Source: Serinicoccus hydrothermalis (lineage in GTDB: Bacteria; Actinomycetota; Actinomycetes; Actinomycetales; Dermatophilaceae). From it: 64,000 bases of DNA. The stretch's first letter is position 1; every line of letters begins with the position of its first letter. Positions 5,182 to 25,081 of the stretch are shown piece by piece. The notes beneath the pieces were generated by a model. It did no database searches, was not told the DNA's origin, and worked only from the letters and a program-made list of their open reading frames with translations. Both the position numbers and the translations under genes were made by a program. Location of the stretch: assembly GCF_001685415.1 (NCBI RefSeq), contig NZ_CP014989.1:3100001-3164000 (forward strand). The letters are read 5' to 3'.

Positions 5182-6402
5182 ATGACTGAGCTGTCCACGA
5201 ACCAGGCCTACATCGACCTCGAGGACAAGGTCGCCGCCCACAACTACAGCCCGCTTCCGGTGGTCGTCGAGCATGCCGAGGGCATTCACGTCACCGACGT
5301 CGAGGGCAACACCTACATCGACGCGCTGTCCGGCTACTCGGCCCTCAACTTCGGCCACCGCCACCCCGCTCTGGTGCAGGCGGCCAAGGACCAGCTCGAC
5401 CGCTCCACCCTGACCTCCCGGGCCTTCCACAACGACCAGCTCGGTCCGTTCTGCGAGTCCCTGGCCGAGCTCGTCGGCAAGGACATGATCCTGCCGATGA
5501 ACACCGGCGCCGAGGCGGTCGAGACCGCGCTGAAGATCGCCCGCAAGTGGGCATACCAGGTCAAGGGCGTGCCGGACGGCCAGGCCGAGATCATCGTCAT
5601 GGACGGCAACTTCCACGGCCGCACGACGACGATCATCTCCTTCTCCGACGACCCGGAGGCGCACGACCACTACGGCCCCTACACCCCCGGCTTCGTCGCG
5701 GTGCCCTACGGCGACCTCGCCGCGATCGAGGCCGCGATCACGGACAACACCGCCGCCGTCCTCGTCGAGCCGATCCAGGGCGAGCAGGGCGTCATGATCC
5801 CCAAGGAGGGCTACCTGCCCGGCCTGCGCGAGCTGTGCACGAGCAAGAACGTCCTCATGATCGCCGACGAGATCCAGTCCGGCCTCGGCCGCACCGGGAC
5901 CTCGCTGGCCTGCGAGTACGAGGGCGTCGAGGCCGACATGTACACCCTCGGCAAGGCGCTCGGCGGCGGCATCGTGCCGGTCTCGGCGGTCGCCGCCGAC
6001 GCCGAGGTCATGAATGTCATCACCCCCGGCACGCACGGCTCGACCTTCGGCGGCAACCCGCTGGCCGCCGCGGTCGGCAAGGCGGTCGTCGACCTGCTGG
6101 CGACCGGCGAGCACCAGGCGCACGCCAAGGAGCTGGAGTCGGTCTTCGCCGACGAGCTCGGCAAGCTGGTCGGCCAGGGCGCCGAGACGGTCCGGGTGCG
6201 CGGCCTGTGGGCCGGCATCGACATCGACCCGGAGCTCATGACGGGCAAGGAGGCGTGCAAGGCGCTGGCCAAGAAGGGCGTCCTCGCCAAGGACACCCAC
6301 GGCTCGACCATCCGCCTCGCCCCGCCGCTGACCATCACCGCGGACGAGCTGCGGCAGGTCACCGACGCGCTCGCCGCCGTGCTCGCGGAGGCCCGCGGCT
6401 GA
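5182..6402 (+). CDS. rocD: Ornithine aminotransferase
   Basis: A 406-residue class III pyridoxal-phosphate aminotransferase that converts ornithine and 2-oxoglutarate to glutamate semialdehyde and glutamate, linking arginine catabolism to proline and glutamate. Family features are YSALNFGHRHP near residue 52, NTGAEAVETALKIARKW (107-123), the cofactor aspartate in ADEIQSG (D229) and the Schiff-base lysine in TLGKALGGG (K258). Length matches RocD. TAGGAT six bases before the ATG suggests leaderless transcription, and an inverted repeat lies further upstream. N-acetylornithine or 4-aminobutyrate aminotransferases are relatives, but the GYSALNFGHRHP and FHGRTTTIIS segments favour RocD. Confidence 0.93.
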   Translation: MTELSTNQAYIDLEDKVAAHNYSPLPVVVEHAEGIHVTDVEGNTYIDALSGYSALNFGHRHPALVQAAKDQLDRSTLTSRAFHNDQLGPFCESLAELVGKDMILPMNTGAEAVETALKIARKWAYQVKGVPDGQAEIIVMDGNFHGRTTTIISFSDDPEAHDHYGPYTPGFVAVPYGDLAAIEAAITDNTAAVLVEPIQGEQGVMIPKEGYLPGLRELCTSKNVLMIADEIQSGLGRTGTSLACEYEGVEADMYTLGKALGGGIVPVSAVAADAEVMNVITPGTHGSTFGGNPLAAAVGKAVVDLLATGEHQAHAKELESVFADELGKLVGQGAETVRVRGLWAGIDIDPELMTGKEACKALAKKGVLAKDTHGSTIRLAPPLTITADELRQVTDALAAVLAEARG

Positions 6403-6422
6403 GCGCTCCCCTGCCCGTCCTC

Positions 6423-7268
6423 GTGACGGGCGTCGTCCTGGCCCCGCTCGGCCTGGTCCTGCCCGGGCTGCTGCTCCGGTATGCCGGGACCCGGCTCGCG
6501 CGGGGCCGTCGCGACGCCGACACCCGCGGCGCGCTCACCGGTGGCGTCGCCACGCTGCTCGTGCCCGTCGTCGGCCTGCTCCTGCTGGGGTATGCCTCCG
6601 CCCCCGTCCTCGTCGGCCTGGGCGCGGGTCTGATCCTCCTCGCGGCGTGGCCGGGGCTCGTCATGGTGCTGCTCCTGGCCCGGCGCTGGTGGCTGTGCCG
6701 GCGCCCGGTGTCGGCGGACCGCCGCGCCGTCATCGTGCTCGGGGCCCCGGTGCCGGACGGCGAGGTGGGGGAGGAGCTCGCCGCCCGTCTGCGTGGTGGC
6801 CTCACCGCGCTCGCCCGGCTCACGGCGCTCGGCTCCGGCGCGGTCGGAGCGGCGGTGCTGCCGCTGGTCCTGACCGGGGGACGCGCCCGGGGGGAGCGCC
6901 CGGCCGAGGCGGAGGCCATGGCGCGCTGGGTCCGCGCGCAGGACCCCGAAACCCCGCTGATCCTCGAGGACCGGGCCGCGACCACGGAGGACAACCTCCT
7001 GCTGTCGACCCGGCTGCTGCAGGAGCAGGGCTGCCCGCCGCCCTACGCGGTCGTGACCAGCGCCTACCACGCCGCCCGCACCAGCCTGCTCGTCGCCCGG
7101 CACCGGCTGCCGCTGCAGGTGGTCGGGGTGCGGGTCCCGATCGACTCCCCGGTCGGGGCATACCTGCGCGAGCTGCTCATCGTGCTCAAGGAGGCGCGCC
7201 GGCCGCACCTCGTGGCGGGGCTGGTGGTCCTCGGGGGCGCGCTGCTGGCGGGGGTCCTCGCCCGCTGA
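6423..7268 (+). CDS. YdcF/SanA-like DUF218 membrane protein
   Basis: A 281-residue protein with three or four hydrophobic segments in the first 100 residues, then a soluble DUF218 domain with AVIVLGAPV, LTGGRARGERPAEAEAM, LEDRAATTEDNL and VVTSAYHAARTSLL, and a C-terminal hydrophobic helix. DUF218 proteins (ElyC, SanA, YdcF) are linked to envelope maintenance and polyprenyl-lipid metabolism, with no settled activity. It begins 20 bases past rocD. GTG at 6423 is the first plausible start, with no clear ribosome site, so it may be coupled to rocD translation. Confidence 0.75.
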   Translation: MTGVVLAPLGLVLPGLLLRYAGTRLARGRRDADTRGALTGGVATLLVPVVGLLLLGYASAPVLVGLGAGLILLAAWPGLVMVLLLARRWWLCRRPVSADRRAVIVLGAPVPDGEVGEELAARLRGGLTALARLTALGSGAVGAAVLPLVLTGGRARGERPAEAEAMARWVRAQDPETPLILEDRAATTEDNLLLSTRLLQEQGCPPPYAVVTSAYHAARTSLLVARHRLPLQVVGVRVPIDSPVGAYLRELLIVLKEARRPHLVAGLVVLGGALLAGVLAR

Positions 7269-17563: not shown

Positions 17564-17636
17564 GCCCCTATAGCTCAGTCGGTAGAGCGTTTCCATGGTA
17601 AGGAAAAGGTCAACGGTTCGATTCCGTTTGGGGGCT
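17564..17636 (+). tRNA. tRNA-Thr (GGT)
   Basis: The cloverleaf has acceptor GCCCCTA paired to TGGGGGC, D-arm GCTC, anticodon loop ATGGTAA with GGT, T-loop TTCGATT and discriminator T. CCA is not encoded. The neighbours tRNA-Met and rpmG are its usual companions in actinobacteria. Confidence 0.95.
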
Positions 17637-17666
17637 CTGGTGTGCCGGCTCGGCCGGTCGCCGCGA

Positions 17667-17743
17667 GGCGGAGTAGCTCAGCTGGTTAGAGCGCACGACT
17701 CATAATCGTGAGGTCGCGGGATCGAGCCCCGCCTCCGCTACCA
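17667..17743 (+). tRNA. tRNA-Met (CAT), elongator type
   Basis: Acceptor GGCGGAG pairs with CTCCGCT (one G-U pair). The anticodon stem CACGA/TCGTG carries loop CTCATAA with anticodon CAT, and the T-arm GCGGG/CCCGC is complete. The encoded 3' end is ACCA. The paired 1-72 position argues for the elongator rather than the initiator. Confidence 0.94.
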
Positions 17744-17802: not shown

Positions 17803-17970
17803 GTGGCCAAGTCCACCGACGTCCGCCCCAAGATCACCATGGCGTGCACGGAGTGCAAGGAGCGCAACTACATCACCAAGAAGAACCGTCGGAACAACCC
17901 CGACCGGCTCGACATGGCGAAGTTCTGCCCGCGCTGCGGCAAGCACACCGCGCACCGCGAGACCCGCTGA
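17803..17970 (+). CDS. rpmG: 50S ribosomal protein L33, zinc-ribbon form
   Basis: This 55-residue protein begins at GTG 17803 ([21 protein letters not shown]) and ends AHRETR. Two C-x-x-C pairs (CTEC and CPRC) make it the zinc-binding C+ form of L33, a component of the 50S subunit near the E site. It follows tRNA-Thr and tRNA-Met and shares their promoter. In mycobacteria and streptomycetes the hadA/hadB-like genes follow directly; here about 4.3 kb of other DNA intervenes. Confidence 0.96.
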
Positions 17971-17990: not shown

Positions 17991-18029
17991 CGGGCCGTCA
18001 CCCCTGCGGGGTGGCGGCCTTCGTCATAC
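17991..18029 (+). repeat. Left copy of an imperfect 38-39 bp direct repeat (island boundary)
   Basis: This copy contains the rpmG terminator. Blocks CGGGCC, TCA, CCTGCGGGGTGG and GCCTTCGTCAT recur in the same order at 22282-22319, directly before the hadA-like gene. The pair brackets the lower-GC peptide operon. Confidence 0.6.
17993..18019. terminator. rpmG terminator hairpin
   Basis: A 12-bp stem (17993-18004 with 18008-18019, one G-U pair) has the tight loop TGC. It lies 22 bases after the rpmG stop and 15 bases before the end of the convergent permease gene, so it can serve both. Confidence 0.85.
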
Positions 18030-18033
18030 CTCC

Positions 18034-19158
18034 CTACTCACGCAGGTCAAGGGTCACGCTCCGCATCGGTCGCAGGGTCGCGAGACCGGCGACCACCAGC
18101 GATACGGCGAACGCCACGAGCGCTCCCCGCGCTCCGTAGGCGAGAACCGCCGGCTGCAGGGGCCCGACGATCAGCGCCATCAGCAGGCATACCTGCATCG
18201 CCAGGATGGAACCACCTGCCATCCCTGTGAGGAACTCCACGACCCGCAGCACCCTGATCTCGGGCGCCCTCGCGCCCAGCGTGATCAGCAGCGCGTCCTC
18301 GCGCCGGCTCATCCACCAGCGCAGACCCACGAGGAGTCCCAGGGCTGCGCCGAGGAGCGCAGCGACGAGGAAAGGATGCCGTTGCTCCTGGCGCTGTTCT
18401 GGCGTCAGGTCGAGTGCTCCGTTCGCCAATCTCGGGCTCACCACGACGCCTTCTGTACCGCCAAGGAGCAACGGCAGCACGGACGCTACGGTGTCCTGAC
18501 TCGCTGGCGACGAACGGACGAAGCACCGGTCGACACCTCCGAGATCGGCGGACACCAGCAGCACATCCGTCGCGCGCTCGTCCCCGAGGACGGAGAGATC
18601 GGCTGCGTGGACCGGAGCCAATGGCGAGTCAAGATATGGAAGCAAAGCGGTCGTCGCAGGGTCTGTCTCAGGCCGCGCCTCTGTGAGCACGATCGCCCCA
18701 CCCGTGGTGCCGGTCTCAGTCGTACCTTCGGTAGGGGTGGGGCGGATCGCCACAGCTGGCGCTGCCGTGAAGAAGTCGACGACGCCGGGGGTGGCCAGTG
18801 TTGCGGCGAAGACGCTTCCTGGCCGCGAGGCCTCGACGAGCGGGACCGCAGCGCGCCTTGCTCCGAAGGCCCCTTCGACGCCAGACAGGGTGGCTAGGCC
18901 GTCGCAGGCCGCGCCGTCGATGACTCCGTCGTCCGAGGTGGAGACGATCAAGATGTGGCCGCCGCTGCTGATCCATCGTTGTTCCTGCTGGGTGATCGAG
19001 TGGGTCGGCAGAGCCTCTGCTAGGGCGGCCAGGACGAGGCAGGCCGCGCTGGCGATGCAGGTGACCAGCCCGTGGCGGTTCGCTGAGGACGATATGCGCA
19101 CCCCTTCGAGCAGGACCTCCTGCCAGCGCCACCCACGGTTCGACGTGCTCGTCCTCAT
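18034..19158 (-). CDS. FtsX/MacB-like ABC transporter permease
   Basis: A 374-residue membrane protein with one N-terminal helix (LVTCIASAACLVLAALAEAL), a large extracytoplasmic domain of about 200 residues and three C-terminal helices (FLVAALLGAALGLLVGLRWW; TGMAGGSILAMQVCLLMALIV; GALVAFAVSLVVAGLATL). This FtsX/MacB topology is used for mechanotransmission rather than channel transport. It is last in the six-gene peptide operon and overlaps the ATPase gene by four bases. It probably extrudes, or protects against, the secreted peptides encoded at the start. Codon use is less GC-rich than the flanks. Confidence 0.75.
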   Translation of the reverse strand: MRTSTSNRGWRWQEVLLEGVRISSSANRHGLVTCIASAACLVLAALAEALPTHSITQQEQRWISSGGHILIVSTSDDGVIDGAACDGLATLSGVEGAFGARRAAVPLVEASRPGSVFAATLATPGVVDFFTAAPAVAIRPTPTEGTTETGTTGGAIVLTEARPETDPATTALLPYLDSPLAPVHAADLSVLGDERATDVLLVSADLGGVDRCFVRSSPASQDTVASVLPLLLGGTEGVVVSPRLANGALDLTPEQRQEQRHPFLVAALLGAALGLLVGLRWWMSRREDALLITLGARAPEIRVLRVVEFLTGMAGGSILAMQVCLLMALIVGPLQPAVLAYGARGALVAFAVSLVVAGLATLRPMRSVTLDLRE

Positions 19159-19787
19159 GCCGGCCTGAGCCTTCCGTCGTCGAGGACGAGCGTTCGGTCG
19201 CAGGACGCCGCGACCTGCAGGTCGTGCGTGACCACCAGCAGGCCGGCTGTGTCGCGGACGGTTTGCATGGCTTCCATCACTTCTCGAGTGGTGTCCGCGT
19301 CGAGCTGGCCGGTGGGTTCGTCGGCAAGGATGAAGGAGGCCCCACTGATGGTCGCTCGGGCGACGGCCACGCGTTGCGCTTCGCCGCCGGACAAGGTGGC
19401 GGCTCTGGCGTGCAGGCGATCCGACAGGTTCAACGCGTTCAGAGCCATCCGGGCGCGTGCACGTGCCTCCTTCCAGGCCAGGCCTTGCTGGAGGCCGCCG
19501 AGAGCCACGTTGTCCTGTGCGGATCGGAACGTGAGGAGGCTGACGGTCTGGAGCACAAAGGCGACGTGGTGACGCGGTCCGTCCTGCCTGCCATCGTCCG
19601 TGCGGACTGTCGCCGAGCCTTCATCCGGTGAAAGAAGGCCACCGGCCACTTGCAGGACCGTCGACTTGCCGGATCCCGAGGGTCCCACCACAGCGACGGT
19701 CTCGCCCGCCTCCATCTCGAGGTCGATCCCCCGGAGTACGCGATGCCCGGTGAACGACTTCGTGACCCCCGTCAACGAGAGGTGCAT
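19155..19787 (-). CDS. ABC transporter ATPase, LolD/MacB type
   Basis: A compact 210-residue ATPase with Walker A GPSGSGKST, Q-loop VLQTVSLL, signature LSGGEAQRVAVARA, Walker B FILADEPTGQLD and switch histidine VVTHD. The LolD/MacB/FtsE subgroup works with FtsX-like permeases, as encoded next. Its start overlaps the end of the adaptor gene by 16 bases. In this operon it should power peptide export or self-protection. Confidence 0.9.
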   Translation of the reverse strand: MHLSLTGVTKSFTGHRVLRGIDLEMEAGETVAVVGPSGSGKSTVLQVAGGLLSPDEGSATVRTDDGRQDGPRHHVAFVLQTVSLLTFRSAQDNVALGGLQQGLAWKEARARARMALNALNLSDRLHARAATLSGGEAQRVAVARATISGASFILADEPTGQLDADTTREVMEAMQTVRDTAGLLVVTHDLQVAASCDRTLVLDDGRLRPA

Positions 19788-20785
19788 GACAGCCCTGGCA
19801 TGAGCCGGCGTGCGTTGACCAGCACTGCATCGAGGTCGGTGTCCGCGGGAAGCCGTGTTCCGCCGGCGTCGCTGTCCACCGCGTCCACGCGCACGATTCT
19901 CTGTCCAGGCATCGCGACGACACAGGTCGCGCCGGTCGCGTCCGTCACCACCGAGGCCGATGGGACCACCAACGCAGGTTGTGGGTCGCGTGCACGGATC
20001 TCCCCGACGCCTTCGGTCCGGGGCAGGGCCTGCGCGATGCGTTGTGCCTCTTCAGGGTCTGTCACGGCCCATGCTTCCCGGTCGAGAGTCGCCTCCTCAC
20101 CTGCAGCCCGGAGCGTGAGAGGACCCTCCGCCAGCGCTGTTCGTGGGCGGGCGTCGATGCGTTCGACGACATCGGGGGTGCGGGCGACAGTCTGTCCGGG
20201 TGTCGTGATGGCACCTACGGCTACGACCCGTTCGACGAGGGACGTCGCAGGTTCGTGGGGAATCCACACCACCGAGGCGACACCGAAAGTCTGCCCCTGA
20301 CGCCCGTGCGCGGTATTCCACTCCTCCACAGCCGCGACGACCTCCTCTGTCATCGTGTCTCCCTCGACGTCGGCGCCCCCCTGAGCCAGGAATTGCACGA
20401 GCCGAGCGACGTCTGGTCCGGTATCGCCAGGCCCGAGGTCGCGGTGCAGTGGTGCCGACGCGGCCATCAGCACAACTGGAGTGTCGTCAAGAGCCAGCAG
20501 CGTTTCTCCCGACTCCAGACTGGCGCCGAGCTCGACGGACCAGGAGGTGATGGTCCCTCCACCTCGCAGGATCAGTTCAGGACCCGGTCGCGACACCACC
20601 TCGAGCGTCTGGCTGACGGTTGGGGAGACATCGTCTCGCTGCACGTGTACCACGACAGGTGCTGGAGCAGTGTCCGCTTCCAGCGGGCTCGAGGCAGTCA
20701 CAACGACCAGAGCCCAGATCCCGAGCCCGGTGCCGATCACGCCCAAGAGTGTGATGACACTCCATAGGGGCCGGGGCAACTTCAT
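19772..20785 (-). CDS. HlyD/MacA-like adaptor with a peptidoglycan-binding segment
   Basis: A 337-residue protein with an N-terminal signal anchor (LWSVITLLGVIGTGLGIWAL) and a lipoyl-like hairpin region (TITSWSVELGASLESGETLLAL). A putative peptidoglycan-binding repeat follows (LGPGDTGPDVARLVQFLAQGG, about residues 115-150), then a beta-barrel-like C-terminal part. In Gram-positive bacteria such proteins partner LolD-type ATPases and FtsX permeases. The ATG at 20785 overlaps the lipoprotein stop (ATGA), favouring it over the longer reading at 20812. A role guiding secreted peptide across the wall is inference. Confidence 0.7.
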   Translation of the reverse strand: MKLPRPLWSVITLLGVIGTGLGIWALVVVTASSPLEADTAPAPVVVHVQRDDVSPTVSQTLEVVSRPGPELILRGGGTITSWSVELGASLESGETLLALDDTPVVLMAASAPLHRDLGPGDTGPDVARLVQFLAQGGADVEGDTMTEEVVAAVEEWNTAHGRQGQTFGVASVVWIPHEPATSLVERVVAVGAITTPGQTVARTPDVVERIDARPRTALAEGPLTLRAAGEEATLDREAWAVTDPEEAQRIAQALPRTEGVGEIRARDPQPALVVPSASVVTDATGATCVVAMPGQRIVRVDAVDSDAGGTRLPADTDLDAVLVNARRLMPGLSCTSR

Positions 20786-21405
20786 GGGCCGAGTCCGGCC
20801 GCGACCAGACAATCAGTCCCGTCGTCGATCAACAGATCTGTCGCCTGACGTCGTAGGACCCAGGGCTCGGCGTCGGCCATCACGTCGAGGCCTGCTTCCT
20901 CCAGGCATGACACCAGCTCTTCACGAACCTGGTCGAGCTGGACATCGCGCGCCTCGCGTACCTGCGGCGAAGAGGTATAGATGGCCTCCATATACAGCGA
21001 GTGTGTCCTGAGGCACTCCTGCGCGAGAGCATCGGTCTGCTCGGCGGATCTTCCTTCTGACGAGGCGCCGTAGGCATAGTCGAGTCTGGGATATCCCTCG
21101 GACTCGTCGACGGTCGCATCGATGACGGGGATGTCCGCCGAACGCATACACGACAGGCTCCGGCCCACTGCCTCTTCCAGCTCTGGAAAAGTCAGTTCCC
21201 CCTGATCCTGCGCCGCTCTCAAGTCGCGCAACTGTGCGTCGGATGCGCCTTGCTCTGATGCCCTCTCCAAGGCTGACTCCACAACTTGATCCCATGCAGG
21301 AGGTGGTTCGTACCTCTCTTCAGGTGGCGTTTGGCATCCGGTGAGGACGACACCTACGGTCAGCATGGCGGCAGGGACACCTTCACGCATTCGAGTCCTT
21401 ACCAT
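20782..21405 (-). CDS. Secreted lipoprotein of the peptide operon
   Basis: A 207-residue lipoprotein: the signal sequence ends in VGVVLTGCQT, a good lipobox with Cys near residue 24. The mature part is acidic with four cysteines (SCMRS, QECLR, SCLEE and TDCLV), possibly two disulfides. I do not recognise the family. It starts inside the end of the peptide gene and overlaps the adaptor start by four bases. Position between the peptide genes and the export genes suits an immunity or docking lipoprotein, but this is inference. The ATG at 21390 is an alternative start. Confidence 0.7.
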   Translation of the reverse strand: MVRTRMREGVPAAMLTVGVVLTGCQTPPEERYEPPPAWDQVVESALERASEQGASDAQLRDLRAAQDQGELTFPELEEAVGRSLSCMRSADIPVIDATVDESEGYPRLDYAYGASSEGRSAEQTDALAQECLRTHSLYMEAIYTSSPQVREARDVQLDQVREELVSCLEEAGLDVMADAEPWVLRRQATDLLIDDGTDCLVAAGLGP

Positions 21406-21719
21406 CCCCTCGCCCTTACATCGTAGAGAACTGCATTGGGAACCGTTCTGTAGTAGTTGTCAGATCCGCCAAACCAGGGTGTCCAGTAGTTGACATTTGA
21501 CCAGTAAGGGTCGTAAGCATGGCGAACAGAGACGTAGTCGCAGTTGTCACCCAGGTCATGCACCTCGGCCGAATCTCCTACCTGGCGTGACCACATGCTG
21601 CACTCATCGGAGGCGCTGGCGGGATTCACCATCACTGCCGTCGTCGCAAACAATCCTGCGATGGCAGCGAGGCCGAACCACCGTCGGCCAGACCGTCTAC
21701 CTGTCGAGGATGATGCCAT
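21399..21719 (-). CDS. Small secreted bacteriocin-like peptide (paralogue A)
   Basis: A 106-residue precursor. A charged N-terminus (TGRRSGRRW) and hydrophobic core end in VNPASA, giving likely signal cleavage before SDECSMW and a mature peptide of about 70 residues. It has two cysteines 20 apart and an aromatic core VSVRHAYDPYWSNVNYW, rich in Trp and Tyr. The upstream gene encodes a clear paralogue with the same two cysteines and VRH-YDP-WS-N pattern. Size, Sec signal, aromatic content and a dedicated ABC system recall lactococcin 972-type bacteriocins. I cannot show homology to that family. The ATG overlaps the stop of paralogue B. Confidence 0.65.
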   Translation of the reverse strand: MASSSTGRRSGRRWFGLAAIAGLFATTAVMVNPASASDECSMWSRQVGDSAEVHDLGDNCDYVSVRHAYDPYWSNVNYWTPWFGGSDNYYRTVPNAVLYDVRARGW

Positions 21720-22007
21720 CAGAACGTCACCTCGTGAAAGCGCAGTTCGGGCGATGGGCGAGTGTATCCAGGCTCTCCCCAATCGCCAACCACCCAATTG
21801 GTATAGAAATTGTGGCTGCTCCACGCGGGATCATAGTGATGTCTGACGAAGACCGGCGAGCACAGTCCGACGGGAACGGCCCATGCGTAGTCGCCGGCCG
21901 TCGTGTGTTGTGATTTTGCTTCACATGCCTGAGCGGGAATCGCGGTGGCTAGTATCCCCCCCCGCTGCCAGTCCGACGATGGAGAAGAGCGCAAAGTGTC
22001 GTTTCAT
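21719..22007 (-). pseudogene. Small secreted bacteriocin-like peptide (paralogue B), frameshifted at a G8 run
   Basis: A textbook Shine-Dalgarno (AGGAGG) precedes the ATG at 22007, opening MKRHFALFSIVGLAAGG. A run of eight G on the minus strand (21956-21963) then throws the reading out of frame to a stop at 21921. Removing one G, or adding two, would join this to ILATAIPAQACEAKSQ. That gives a 95-residue precursor with a perfect signal peptide (cleavage after AQA) and a mature peptide paralogous to A, with two Cys and VRHHYDPAWSSHNFY. It is therefore either phase-variable, recently inactivated, or a homopolymer sequencing error. It is first in the operon. Confidence 0.7.
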
Positions 22008-22281: not shown

Positions 22282-22319
22282 CGGGCCATCAGCCTGCGGG
22301 GTGGAGCCTTCGTCATGCC
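22282..22319 (+). repeat. Right copy of the imperfect direct repeat (island boundary)
   Basis: This copy matches the rpmG terminator segment at 17991-18029 in about 34 of 39 aligned positions, but has lost pairing and no longer forms a good hairpin. It ends 50 bases before the hadA-like start, where the terminator would sit if rpmG and hadA were adjacent. Confidence 0.6.
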
Positions 22320-22369: not shown

Positions 22370-22816
22370 ATGTCCGTCAACCCAGACTTCGCCGGGCGGG
22401 AGTACCCCCCGGCCGGCCCGTTCGAGGTGACCGCCGACCAGATCACCGCCTTCGCCGACGCGGTCGGCGCGACCGGGGCCGCGCACCGTGACCCGGCCGC
22501 CGCGCAGGACCTGGGGTATGCCGACGTCGTGGCACCTCCGACATTCGCCGTCCGCCTCGCGCAGCAGTGCGAGGCGCAACTGGTCCAGGACCCGCAGGCC
22601 GGGATCGACTTCTCCCGGGTCGTCCACGGGCAGGAGGGCTTCGTCCACCACCGGCCGATCGTCGCCGGCGACGCGCTGACCGGCACGCTGCACGTCGACA
22701 CCATCCGCGAGGCGGGAGGGCACGGCATGGTCGCCACCCGGGTCGAGCTCACCGACGCCCAGGGCGGCGCGGTGACCACCGTGACCTCGACCATCGTCGT
22801 CCGGGGGGAGGGCTGA
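22370..22816 (+). CDS. MaoC-type dehydratase, HadA-like subunit
   Basis: A 148-residue hot-dog protein of the FAS1-like dehydratase N-terminal family: FEVTADQITAFADAVGA, then APPTFAVRLAQQ and VHGQEGFVHHRPIVAGDALTG. In mycobacteria HadA is the substrate-binding partner of catalytic HadB in the (R)-3-hydroxyacyl-ACP dehydratase of FAS-II. The next gene encodes the catalytic partner with a four-base overlap. TAGGCT six bases before the ATG suggests a leaderless mRNA; the GGAGG is too close to be ideal. Whether this organism uses the pair for FAS-II or another pathway is uncertain. Confidence 0.87.
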   Translation: MSVNPDFAGREYPPAGPFEVTADQITAFADAVGATGAAHRDPAAAQDLGYADVVAPPTFAVRLAQQCEAQLVQDPQAGIDFSRVVHGQEGFVHHRPIVAGDALTGTLHVDTIREAGGHGMVATRVELTDAQGGAVTTVTSTIVVRGEG

Positions 22817-23220: not shown

Positions 23221-24368
23221 GCGGAGCCGTGGGGCATACCGCTGCCGCGGACGTCGGGACGACACCGCTCGCCGAGCTCACGACGATGCGGGTCGGCGGG
23301 GCCGCGCGCCGCCTCGTCACAGCCACCACCGAGGCCGAGCTCATCGACGCCGTCCGCGAGGCCGACGAGGCAGGTGAGCAGCTGCTCGTCGTGGGTGGCG
23401 GGTCCAACCTCGTCGTGGCCGACGAGGGCTTCCCGGGCACCGTCGTGCTGGTCCGGACGCGCGGCGTCGCGGTGCCGCACGACTCCGCCTGCGGCGGGGT
23501 GAGCGCCACCGTCGCGGCGGGGGAGAACTGGGACGAGGTCGTGGCCCACGCCTGCGAGCAGGGCTGGTCGGGGATCGAGGCGCTCTCCGGCATCCCCGGC
23601 GCCACCGGCGCCACGCCCGTGCAGAACGTCGGCGCCTACGGCCAGGAGGTCGCCCAGACCATCGCCAGCGTCCGGGTCTGGGACCGCGACCAGGGCCGGG
23701 TGCGGACGCTCTTCTCCGCCGACCTCGGCTTCGCCTACCGGCACTCGGTGCTCAAGGAGTCCATGGTCGGCCCGGAGGCGACACCGGGGGCGGTCACCCC
23801 ACGGCACGTCGTGCTCGACGTCACCTTCTCGCTGCGCCCGACCGAGCTCTCCCAGCCGATCAGGTATGCCGCGCTCGCCGACGGTCTCGGCGTCGAGCTG
23901 GGGGAGCGGGTCCCGTTGGCAGACGCCCGGGCCGCGGTGCTGGAGCAGCGGGGGCGCCGGGGGATGGTCCTGGACGCACCGGACCACGACACCTGGTCCT
24001 GCGGCTCGTTCTTCACCAACCCGATCCTGCCGCGCGAGCAGCTCGAGGAGGTCCGTGCCCGGGCGGCGGCGGGAGCCGGTGAGGACGCCGATGCGGCGGT
24101 CCCGCCGATGTACCCCACCGACACCGAGGAGCTGGTCAAGACCTCCGCCGCCTGGCTCATCGAGCACGCGGGCTTCACCAAGGGCTACGCCACGCGTGAG
24201 GGCAGGCCCGCCGGGCTGTCGACCAAGCATACCCTGGCGCTGACCAATCGCGGCTCTGCCCGCGCGCAGGACGTCGTCGAGCTCGCGCGCGAGGTGCGCG
24301 ACGGGGTGGAGGAGTCCTTCGGGGTGCGGCTGGTCAACGAGCCGGTGCTGGTCGGCCTCAGCCTCTAG
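23217..24368 (+). CDS. murB: UDP-N-acetylenolpyruvoylglucosamine reductase
   Basis: A 383-residue FAD enzyme that reduces UDP-GlcNAc-enolpyruvate to UDP-MurNAc in peptidoglycan synthesis. It has LTTMRVGGAARRLV, the FAD-binding VVGGGSNLVVADEGF, the GIPGATGATPVQNVGAYGQEV segment, FAYRHSVLK and the C-terminal GFTKGYATREGRPAGLSTKHTLALTN. GSFFTNP carries the catalytic serine, so this is the type I enzyme. GTG start inside the HadB-like stop. It ends on the palindrome CTAG shared with the convergent VapC stop. Confidence 0.95.
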   Translation: MSGAVGHTAAADVGTTPLAELTTMRVGGAARRLVTATTEAELIDAVREADEAGEQLLVVGGGSNLVVADEGFPGTVVLVRTRGVAVPHDSACGGVSATVAAGENWDEVVAHACEQGWSGIEALSGIPGATGATPVQNVGAYGQEVAQTIASVRVWDRDQGRVRTLFSADLGFAYRHSVLKESMVGPEATPGAVTPRHVVLDVTFSLRPTELSQPIRYAALADGLGVELGERVPLADARAAVLEQRGRRGMVLDAPDHDTWSCGSFFTNPILPREQLEEVRARAAAGAGEDADAAVPPMYPTDTEELVKTSAAWLIEHAGFTKGYATREGRPAGLSTKHTLALTNRGSARAQDVVELAREVRDGVEESFGVRLVNEPVLVGLSL

Positions 24369-24802
24369 GGACGTGGGTCCAGCGGGCGGCGCCAGGCCAG
24401 TCCGGGGAACCGGGCGAAGTCGGCGTCGTCACTGATGAGCGTCGCGCCATGTTGCATCGCCGTGGCCGCGTGAGCCGCGTCGGCGACGAGGTTGCCGGTG
24501 GCGCCGGCCCGCTCGCACAGGTCGAGGACCAGTTGCCAGTGCCCCGCCAGCGTCCGCAAGGTGCGCACGTTGGGGTGTCTCAGCAGGTTGCTGATCGACG
24601 CGGCCGCCTCCGGCACCGTCGCAGGGGTCGTGAAGACCCGGGGGTGGGTCACGACGCGCAGGGTCCCGGTGAGCACCGCGTCGCTGATGCCCACGACCTC
24701 CTCCCCGTCGACCGCCCGCTCCAGCCAGGGCCGCAGTGTCGTGTGGCCGGGTGAGCCCCGGTGGAGCGCCCCCACCAGCACGTTGACGTCAAGGGCGAGC
24801 AT
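24365..24802 (-). CDS. vapC: PIN-domain ribonuclease toxin (VapC-like)
   Basis: A 145-residue PIN domain, the toxin of type II VapBC modules, typically cutting tRNA or rRNA. Acidic active-site residues are the Asp of LALDVNVLVGALH near the start, Glu in AVDGEEVVGIS, Asp in NLVADAAHAATAM and Asp in LISDDADFARFPGL. It overlaps its antitoxin gene by 14 bases. Its stop and the murB stop share CTAG, so the module sits exactly at the end of murB. The cellular RNA target cannot be read from sequence. Confidence 0.88.
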   Translation of the reverse strand: MLALDVNVLVGALHRGSPGHTTLRPWLERAVDGEEVVGISDAVLTGTLRVVTHPRVFTTPATVPEAAASISNLLRHPNVRTLRTLAGHWQLVLDLCERAGATGNLVADAAHAATAMQHGATLISDDADFARFPGLAWRRPLDPRP

Positions 24803-25037
24803 CGGTCATGAGCTCTTCCAGGGCGGCCTGGTCGCTCAGGTCGACGCCCGGACGGAGCCCGCCGTCCCCGCCGACCGGCGTGAGCGAGAAGGGCGCGTCG
24901 TGGCGCCGGTGGCTCCGTGAGGCCAGGGCCTCGCGCAGCGACTCCTCGATGAGTGAGGTCACGGTCCTGCGCTCGCGGAGCGCCGTCTCGCGCACCTCGT
25001 CGTAGAGGTCCTGGGGCAACCGGATGGTCGTGCGCAC
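24789..25037 (-). CDS. vapB: Ribbon-helix-helix antitoxin (VapB-like)
   Basis: An 82-residue antitoxin whose N-terminal ribbon-helix-helix (MRTTIRLPQDLYDEV, then RTVTSLIEESLREAL) binds DNA as a dimer; the acidic C-terminus would wrap VapC. The GTG start has TATGCT exactly six bases upstream and no ribosome site, so it is probably leaderless. A palindrome sits about 10 bases further upstream. It overlaps vapC by 14 bases. Confidence 0.85.
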   Translation of the reverse strand: MRTTIRLPQDLYDEVRETALRERRTVTSLIEESLREALASRSHRRHDAPFSLTPVGGDGGLRPGVDLSDQAALEELMTDARP

Positions 25038-25043
25038 AGGTCG

Positions 25044-25071
25044 AGCATACCGTGGCTGACATATGTATGTC
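25044..25071 (-). promoter_or_regulatory. Autoregulated leaderless promoter of vapBC
   Basis: The minus-strand -10 is TATGCT (25044-25049). Upstream lies GACAT-ATGT-ATGTC (25058-25071), with the 8-bp palindrome ACATATGT, at the -35 position. Binding there by a ribbon-helix-helix antitoxin would block the promoter. Confidence 0.55.
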
Positions 25072-25081
25072 GGGCCCTCGC

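Follow-up and report, generated by a model that had tools for sequence, protein, structure and literature searches.

A putative family of Sec-exported bacteriocin-like peptides with lipoprotein partners and a MacAB-like pump in Serinicoccus hydrothermalis and related actinobacteria

In this study, a group of genes of Serinicoccus hydrothermalis was analyzed within a stretch of 64,000 nucleotides, referred to here as the window (contig NZ_CP014989.1, positions 3,100,001 to 3,164,000 of the forward strand). On the minus strand, positions 18034-22007 of the window contained a tight run of overlapping open reading frames (ORFs) in the order (pepA)-pepB-lipoprotein-adaptor-ATPase-permease. The analysis suggested, with somewhat better than even confidence, that this run is a horizontally moving cassette of an undescribed family, in which bacteriocin-like peptides exported by Sec, each paired with a lipoprotein for immunity, share a pump of the MacAB/YknXYZ kind. 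The computed steps of this model comprise the genes, their recurrence, the pairing of peptide with lipoprotein, the change of cargo on a nearly constant ATP-binding cassette (ABC) transporter, the predicted folds and the horizontal acquisition. The general plan of a Sec-exported peptide with linked immunity is already known, and the protein families found here could not be placed. Among the matches listed from the open-access PubMed Central (PMC) literature, judged by title and the start of the abstract, no description of such a system was found. The initial annotation of this DNA as a candidate for a new system of secreted peptides, including an exporter-type ABC transporter and a Cys-rich lipoprotein, was upheld, in that the system recurs in several families of the order, is absent from the family libraries and differs from lactococcin 972 in sequence and in locus.

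Gene content and recurrence of the cassette

The cassette consists of the following features:

21719..22007, minus strand: pepA, a disrupted pepB paralogue (ATG frame 22007..21921; the remaining homologous sequence is in the ORF 21719-21994)
21399..21719, minus strand: pepB, a 106-residue precursor with a signal peptide at 1-36 by rule and a 70-residue mature peptide (from homologues and a predicted beta-sandwich)
20782..21405, minus strand: lipoprotein with four conserved Cys plus the lipobox Cys, the proposed immunity partner (from profile matches and a predicted model)
19772..20812, minus strand: MacA/YknX-like adaptor with one transmembrane (TM) segment (from profiles; PG_binding_1 in four of four homologues tested)
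19155..19787, minus strand: LolD/MacB-type ABC ATPase (from PF00005 and NCBIfam likeness)
18034..19158, minus strand: MacB/FtsX-shaped permease with four TM-like segments and a large extracellular part (from the TM-like segments and locus profiles)

The ATPase matched PF00005 in Pfam (E = 6e-28), and its best NCBIfam matches were LolD, L_ocin_972_ABC and MacB, all under the cut-off, which agrees with its earlier description as LolD-type. The adaptor has a single N-terminal TM-like segment and weakly matched RND_mfp (E = 0.015). The peptidoglycan-binding segment previously ascribed to this adaptor was not called by Pfam in the window protein, but PF01471 (PG_binding_1) was above the cut-off in all four homologous adaptors tested (E = 2e-7 to 3e-10). 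The permease, a protein of 374 residues, contains four TM-like segments with approximately 210 residues separating the first and second, a shape in keeping with the earlier FtsX-like assignment. Pfam gave no FtsX/MacB_PCD match for the window permease, and one of five homologues tested (L105) matched FtsX below the cut-off (E = 7e-4). A separate adaptor, an ATPase and a four-TM permease with a large extracellular loop form the layout of MacAB/YknXYZ-type ABC machines, and this layout was found here. No membrane protein other than the permease and the adaptor with its single TM-like segment was found in the chain 18034-22007, and a YknW (Yip1) component is absent. Scans for promoters and terminators gave signals not above chance. 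A role in anti-phage defence was also considered and rejected; PADLOC matched the ATPase alone (including mad3, E = 8e-31), which was taken as general ATPase similarity.

The window lipoprotein sequence used as a query gave matches in 6 of 196 genomes, and a nine-row lipoprotein profile matched 58 of 396 genomes searched within the order and 10 of 396 searched within the phylum, with the genome of the window counted in every case. Two or more lipoprotein matches, up to seven, were present in 25 of the 58 order genomes. Profiles for all four larger genes were then applied to 47 loci (the window and two sets of 6 and 40 further regions; L045, the locus of a second pepB carrier, was left out, and the near-identical L117 and L118 were both counted). 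These loci were picked by their match to the lipoprotein profile, and the gene-order counts are conditional on that choice. A full adaptor-ATPase-permease triad was present in 27 of the 47 loci, and in 16 of these 27 (L129 being added to the count by hand) the genes followed the order peptide-lipoprotein-(further pairs)-adaptor-ATPase-permease on one strand. This order recurs in several families of the order, as found in the survey of actinobacterial gene neighbourhoods that the initial annotation had proposed, and the recurrence confirmed that the gene chain is more than chance. The permease-profile search named Demequina globuliformis, D. sediminicola, D. flava, Demequina sp. B12, other Demequina/Demequinaceae records and Actinotalea ferrariae as carriers.

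The peptide and lipoprotein genes are closely linked. Signal peptides were called throughout by rule (n-region, hydrophobic core and AxA site) rather than by a trained predictor, and under a strict rule, which required a signal-peptide ORF of 80-150 amino acids ending just upstream, such an ORF directly preceded 34 of 63 lipoproteins versus 3 of 251 genes taken as controls from these loci. Three of the 29 lipoproteins failing this rule have a peptide outside it (the second pair of L046, L108 with a TTG start, and L138:3375); these three pairs, missed by the strict count, were excluded from a rescan of the other 26 under relaxed rules, in which none gained a peptide. Among these 26 lone lipoproteins, 17 score above 60 bits and nine are weak matches below 52 bits. 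In the reverse direction, profiles of two peptide classes, each run against 213 genomes, gave 43 matches at E = 0.01 or better, of which 17 had a lipoprotein match within flanks of up to 1.5 kb. All 12 matches at E <= 1.1e-5 have a lipoprotein nearby, although ten of them had themselves gone into the profiles as rows; L203, which is one of the 12, and the weaker L188 and L215 are loci outside profile building and also have a lipoprotein.

These pairings bear on the simplest alternative, namely that the genes form a standard MacAB operon for multidrug-type efflux, with the lipoprotein as an accessory, and that the small ORFs encode unrelated secreted proteins. The resemblance of the ATPase to MacB/LolD would suit such an operon, as would the triads that have a lipoprotein yet no peptide. 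However, the peptide is enriched upstream of the lipoprotein, also at loci without the ABC genes, and the adjoining lipoproteins of the 12 strongest peptide-profile matches and of the three loci outside profile building likewise speak against unrelated ORFs, which makes this explanation very unlikely.

Peptides without ABC genes had been named in the initial annotation as grounds for rejecting the model, and they do occur at single loci, as 20 of the 47 loci lack a full triad and 12 of these 20 hold a peptide-lipoprotein pair. However, 14 of these 20 loci come from genomes that hold a triad at another place (L046, L049, L101, L110, L114, L115). For this reason one ABC transporter may serve several cargo pairs, and the model survives in the form of one ABC hub with several peptide-lipoprotein pairs.

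Several loci depart from the common layout. In the near-identical L117 and L118, the peptide-lipoprotein pair is divergent from the ABC triad. In L051, a further predicted lipoprotein of approximately 350 amino acids (5787-6848), with no Pfam or NCBIfam match at cut-off, lies between the four-Cys lipoprotein and the adaptor. In each of the genomes G462 and G335 (L101-L103, L109-L113 and L124), seven lipoprotein matches are spread over several loci, with one ABC triad among the loci examined, which looks like an immunity array.

Peptides, lipoproteins and the change of cargo

The initial annotation described two paralogous Sec-exported peptides. The paralogy was borne out, as the pepB query finds pepA with 38% identity (E = 2.8e-5), and pepB carries a Sec-type signal; the notion of twin functional peptides was not, because pepA is broken. 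The pepA ATG at 22007 is preceded by an AGGAGG site and opens a frame of 28 codons, which meets a stop at 21921-21923 while still within the signal peptide. The mature sequence resembling pepA is in a different frame, in the ORF 21719-21994 with a TTG start and no good signal peptide. Carriers of pepB were found in 2 of 146 genomes searched, including the genome of the window; the other carrier, G021 (L045), has the same disruption of pepA plus a stop within the mature part. Because the ATG frame of pepA closes inside the signal region both here and in G021, what the cassette retains is one peptide gene that appears intact and one disrupted paralogue. A contig search with pepB alone as query gave no match, and in plasmid records the pepB query gave only one partial Gordonia match (E = 0.9).

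The mature part of pepB contains two Cys, at positions 4 and 24, which are 20 apart, and its predicted structure is a small beta-sandwich (predicted local distance difference test, pLDDT, 89). Mature peptides of the family are roughly 60-110 residues long and strongly diverse, with a mean column identity of 17% in the alignment, and most retain two Cys. Two invariant Cys hold for the 32 peptides of alignment A3, which omits the two of L104, L109, L135 and L138:4022, and not for all 37 sequences (36 peptides of the homologue set plus the pepA stretch). The candidate peptides L124:5649, L127:5527 and L129:4805 are outside both the 36-peptide set and A3.

The window lipoprotein has a lipobox Cys at position 24 and further Cys at 86, 131, 167 and 199, in accordance with its earlier description as Cys-rich. 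Family lipoproteins retain the four Cys, and the predicted structure (pLDDT 95) has no solid fold match. In the search of solved structures with lipoprotein profile A2, the best match was 8ure_A ("sr312"; E = 0.0015, profile positions 11-66), and the other six had E > 0.3. No match to either of the two lipoproteins tested was found in plasmid records.

No model of Pfam, NCBIfam, PHROGs or PADLOC reached the cut-off on the peptides or lipoprotein tested. In PHROGs, the peptides had no match and the lipoprotein matched only an Rz-like spanin (E = 0.076). Two matches below the cut-off were judged to be chance, that of an L048 peptide to CsgE (E = 0.009) and that of the window lipoprotein to GAGE (Pfam, E = 3.3e-4).

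The change of cargo was seen in three Demequina loci (L046, L101 and L104), where adaptor, ATPase and permease are 87-96% identical pairwise at the amino acid level, with best peptide matches of 34, 36 and 58% and best lipoprotein matches of 37, 54 and 85%. L104 carries two peptide-lipoprotein pairs behind the permease rather than in front of it, and one of its peptides has no Cys and the other a single Cys. Moreover, peptides co-vary with their partner lipoproteins: the Mantel test gave a Spearman r of 0.19 for 33 pairs, with 4 of 2000 shuffles as high and 5 of 2000 on repeat, and within one family (f10) r was 0.30 for 20 pairs (1 of 5000 shuffles). The tests omit the near-duplicates L045 and L118, and a scored lipoprotein lay within range for 33 of the 34 peptides that remained.

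Such pairing and co-variation would suit receptor-ligand pairs as well as toxin-immunity pairs, and polymorphic pheromone systems also swap cargo. In a signalling system, the peptide would be a secreted pheromone, the lipoprotein its receptor or scavenger, and the ABC transporter would clear or re-export the peptide. However, no regulator or sensor kinase was seen by eye among the cassette ORFs, mature peptides of roughly the length given above, with pepB predicted as a beta-sandwich, are large for pheromones, and lone lipoproteins without a peptide are frequent. Signalling is therefore considered unlikely. Lone lipoproteins, and an intact lipoprotein beside a broken pepA, fit orphan immunity genes.

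Proposed function and relation to known systems

Among the models considered, the bacteriocin-like one appears to be the best, although this preference is a modest one. In this model, the peptide precursor would be exported by Sec and then cut by signal peptidase, the two cysteines would be oxidised, and the small beta-sandwich released would attack the envelope of related bacteria. The lipoprotein, whose gene comes immediately after that of the peptide, would be anchored outside the membrane of the producer and would neutralise that particular peptide. The adaptor, ATPase and permease may form a shared MacAB/YknXYZ-like machine on the outer face of the membrane, which would expel the peptide, free or lipoprotein-bound, through the wall. 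The triad would thus serve immunity and release, not membrane export. Killing, immunity by the lipoprotein, the direction of transport and the disulfide are steps that we infer. Antibacterial activity with built-in immunity, as proposed in the initial annotation, is still the simplest model and was strengthened by the swapping of cargo and the lone lipoproteins, with killing as its conjectural part. The initial annotation also treated the ABC transporter as the exporter of the peptide, which was not sustained; because the peptides have Sec-type signals, the ABC transporter is probably not what carries them across the membrane.

A related possibility is a device for export or display, in which a lipoprotein chaperone would hand the Sec-exported peptide to a MacAB-like pump that moves it through the wall to the surface for a structural, adhesive or inhibitory role. 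The substrates of MacAB-type pumps are already outside the membrane when the pump acts on them, and the peptidoglycan-binding domain of the four adaptor homologues tested would be in keeping with such a device. The peptide-lipoprotein pairs held by loci without a full triad, the lone lipoproteins and the strong diversity of the peptides argue against it, and we regard it as improbable.

Several observations weigh against the bacteriocin-like model. Neither peptides nor lipoprotein matched any toxin or immunity family at the cut-off. Three of the 36 peptides have no mature Cys (L104:7576, L109 and L135) and L104:6448 has one, so that a disulfide is not obligatory. The change of cargo is incomplete, since one pair among the three Demequina loci keeps a lipoprotein match of 85% and another a peptide match of 58%. 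The correlations between peptides and lipoproteins are modest, and common descent could account for part of them. In eight triad loci, a lipoprotein is present but no peptide was found (L106, L107, L130, L131, L132, L134, L136 and L140; in L107, 498 bp separate the start of the lipoprotein from the contig end), and a housekeeping function of lipoprotein and ABC transporter fits this as well. Moreover, 26 of the 43 peptide-profile matches, all with E = 2e-4 or worse, have no lipoprotein match nearby, although these are probably mostly signal-peptide noise. Finally, some of the data would suit a pheromone or a role in release.

Three known systems besides lactococcin 972 resemble parts of the cassette. 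In the self-protection of lantibiotic producers by LanI and LanFEG (NisI/NisFEG for nisin), a surface lipoprotein and an ABC transporter guard the producer. The cassette shares this combination, with a putative immunity role, but no modification enzymes were seen in it, and its ABC transporter is of the MacB type and not of the LanFEG type. MacAB likewise combines an adaptor, an ATPase and a four-TM permease with a large extracellular domain; here, in contrast, ATPase and permease are separate genes, TolC is absent, peptide and lipoprotein genes are linked, and the adaptor homologues carry a peptidoglycan-binding domain. The third system is the SDP toxin (SdpC) of Bacillus with YknWXYZ. SDP is made with sdpAB, and we know of no co-transcribed variable peptide-lipoprotein pairs in the SDP/YknWXYZ system. 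According to PMC4887032, the Gram-positive YknWXYZ, with an adaptor, an ATPase and a MacB-like permease, protects against SDP, a secreted toxin with an intramolecular disulfide; a similar bond would be present in the peptides of this study. YknWXYZ is the Bacillus precedent for the proposed immunity role of the triad. As described in the same source (PMC4887032), the system differs in having a Yip1-family membrane protein in place of the four-Cys lipoprotein and in the size of SDP, which is 42 amino acids.

The lactococcin 972 family (Lcn972, streptococcin B) also comprises small, Sec-exported, all-beta peptides linked to ABC genes of putative immunity (PMC11796350 and PMC4055356). A second precedent is that orf2-orf3 of Lcn972 are said to possibly encode an ABC transporter involved in immunity (PMC4055356), although the authors on streptococcin B state that the functions of B and C are unverified in any Lcn972 locus (PMC11796350). 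A divergent member of this family would explain the Sec-type signal, which the peptides of the cassette and its relatives possess by rule, the small all-beta predicted mature peptide, the ABC neighbours, and the likeness of the ATPase to TIGR03608 (147 bits versus a cut-off of 254.85). However, TIGR01653 matched neither the two window peptide ORFs nor 17 homologues (19 peptides), none of which had a Pfam match at the cut-off; in genome searches it matched 4 of 198 genomes, the window's not among them. Comparison of the profiles of the peptides of this study and Lcn972 gave a probability of 0.1%, with an Lcn972 profile of only six Lcn972-type sequences, some partial (L171, which has a stop inside, was excluded). 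The layouts also differ: the one Streptomyces Lcn972 locus examined (L184) encodes a 707-residue protein with eight TM-like segments plus an ATPase, whereas the window and the 26 other loci with a triad encode an adaptor, an ATPase and a small permease, with the lipoprotein in the cassette, and no membrane protein of approximately 700 residues. Among the Foldseek/VIA matches listed there was no Lcn972 structure, an absence that carries no evidential weight. Membership was rejected on the basis of family models, profile comparison and locus layout, and a divergent Lcn972 origin is highly improbable. On both points, the missing match of the mature peptides to lactococcin 972 and the absence of the usual large membrane protein, the initial annotation was correct.

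On a broader scale, the cassette may represent a large undescribed class of Sec-exported, mostly two-Cys beta-sandwich bacteriocins. Each would be co-inherited with a cognate four-Cys immunity lipoprotein, whose fold has no close solved relatives, as exchangeable cargo on one conserved MacAB-like hub for immunity and release. In Demequina relatives and other families of actinobacteria, the pairs would build up as arrays and as orphan immunity genes, and they would move between species as cassettes of approximately 4 kb. We hold this wider claim to be evenly balanced. If it is true, a bacterial group from which, to our knowledge, few bacteriocins are known would gain a family of ribosomal antibacterial peptides that has gone unannotated. 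The claim would also provide a case, open to testing, of polymorphic toxin-immunity cargo on a transporter that stays nearly the same, in which natural pairs can be compared for the specificity of the lipoprotein. With the lipoprotein profile (A4) and the gene order, it is possible to mine for peptides that were missed by every family model tried.

Acquisition of the cassette

The borders of the cassette are marked by the following features:

17803..17970, plus strand: rpmG, ribosomal protein L33, left neighbour of the insertion (PF00471)
18003..18031, strand not assigned: left imperfect copy of a direct repeat at the cassette border (resembles sequence behind rpmG in relatives)
22293..22319, strand not assigned: right imperfect copy of the direct repeat, before hadA (from sequence comparison)
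22370..22816, plus strand: hadA-like dehydratase, right neighbour of the insertion (PF13452), a gene that we presume to be hadA

The cassette was recently acquired by horizontal transfer; it is an import, because 28 of 30 hadA loci of the same genus are empty, with rpmG and hadA 80-633 bp apart and no cassette between them. The window and G021 hold an insert of approximately 4.3 kb at this place. It is flanked by the imperfect direct repeat (18003-18031 and 22293-22319), whose left copy is similar to the DNA that follows rpmG in the four spacers compared from empty sites. Identity between the window and G021 is 97.5-100% over the cassette (18089-21888), 94-97.5% in the stretches immediately beside it, and further out 62-81% at approximately 16.5-17.5 kb and 84-91% at 22.5-23.3 kb. 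The GC content at third codon positions is 0.63-0.80 in the cassette versus 0.98 in rpmG and 0.95 in hadA. The ratio of nonsynonymous to synonymous substitutions (dN/dS) and tests of positive selection between the copies of the two species were uninformative owing to too few differing sites.

Further observations were made in the vicinity of the insertion. Genes for tRNA-Thr and tRNA-Met (17564-17743, plus strand) lie directly upstream of rpmG, adjoining the insertion. A second stretch, at 23277-25076, is 95-100% identical to G021 and lies beyond the DNA of 84-91% identity, which indicates patchy recombination in the region. On the minus strand at 24365-25037, a gene for a ribbon-helix-helix protein (PF01402, 24789-25037) is followed by one for a PIN-domain protein (PF01850, 24365-24802), and the two look like a toxin-antitoxin pair of the VapBC type.

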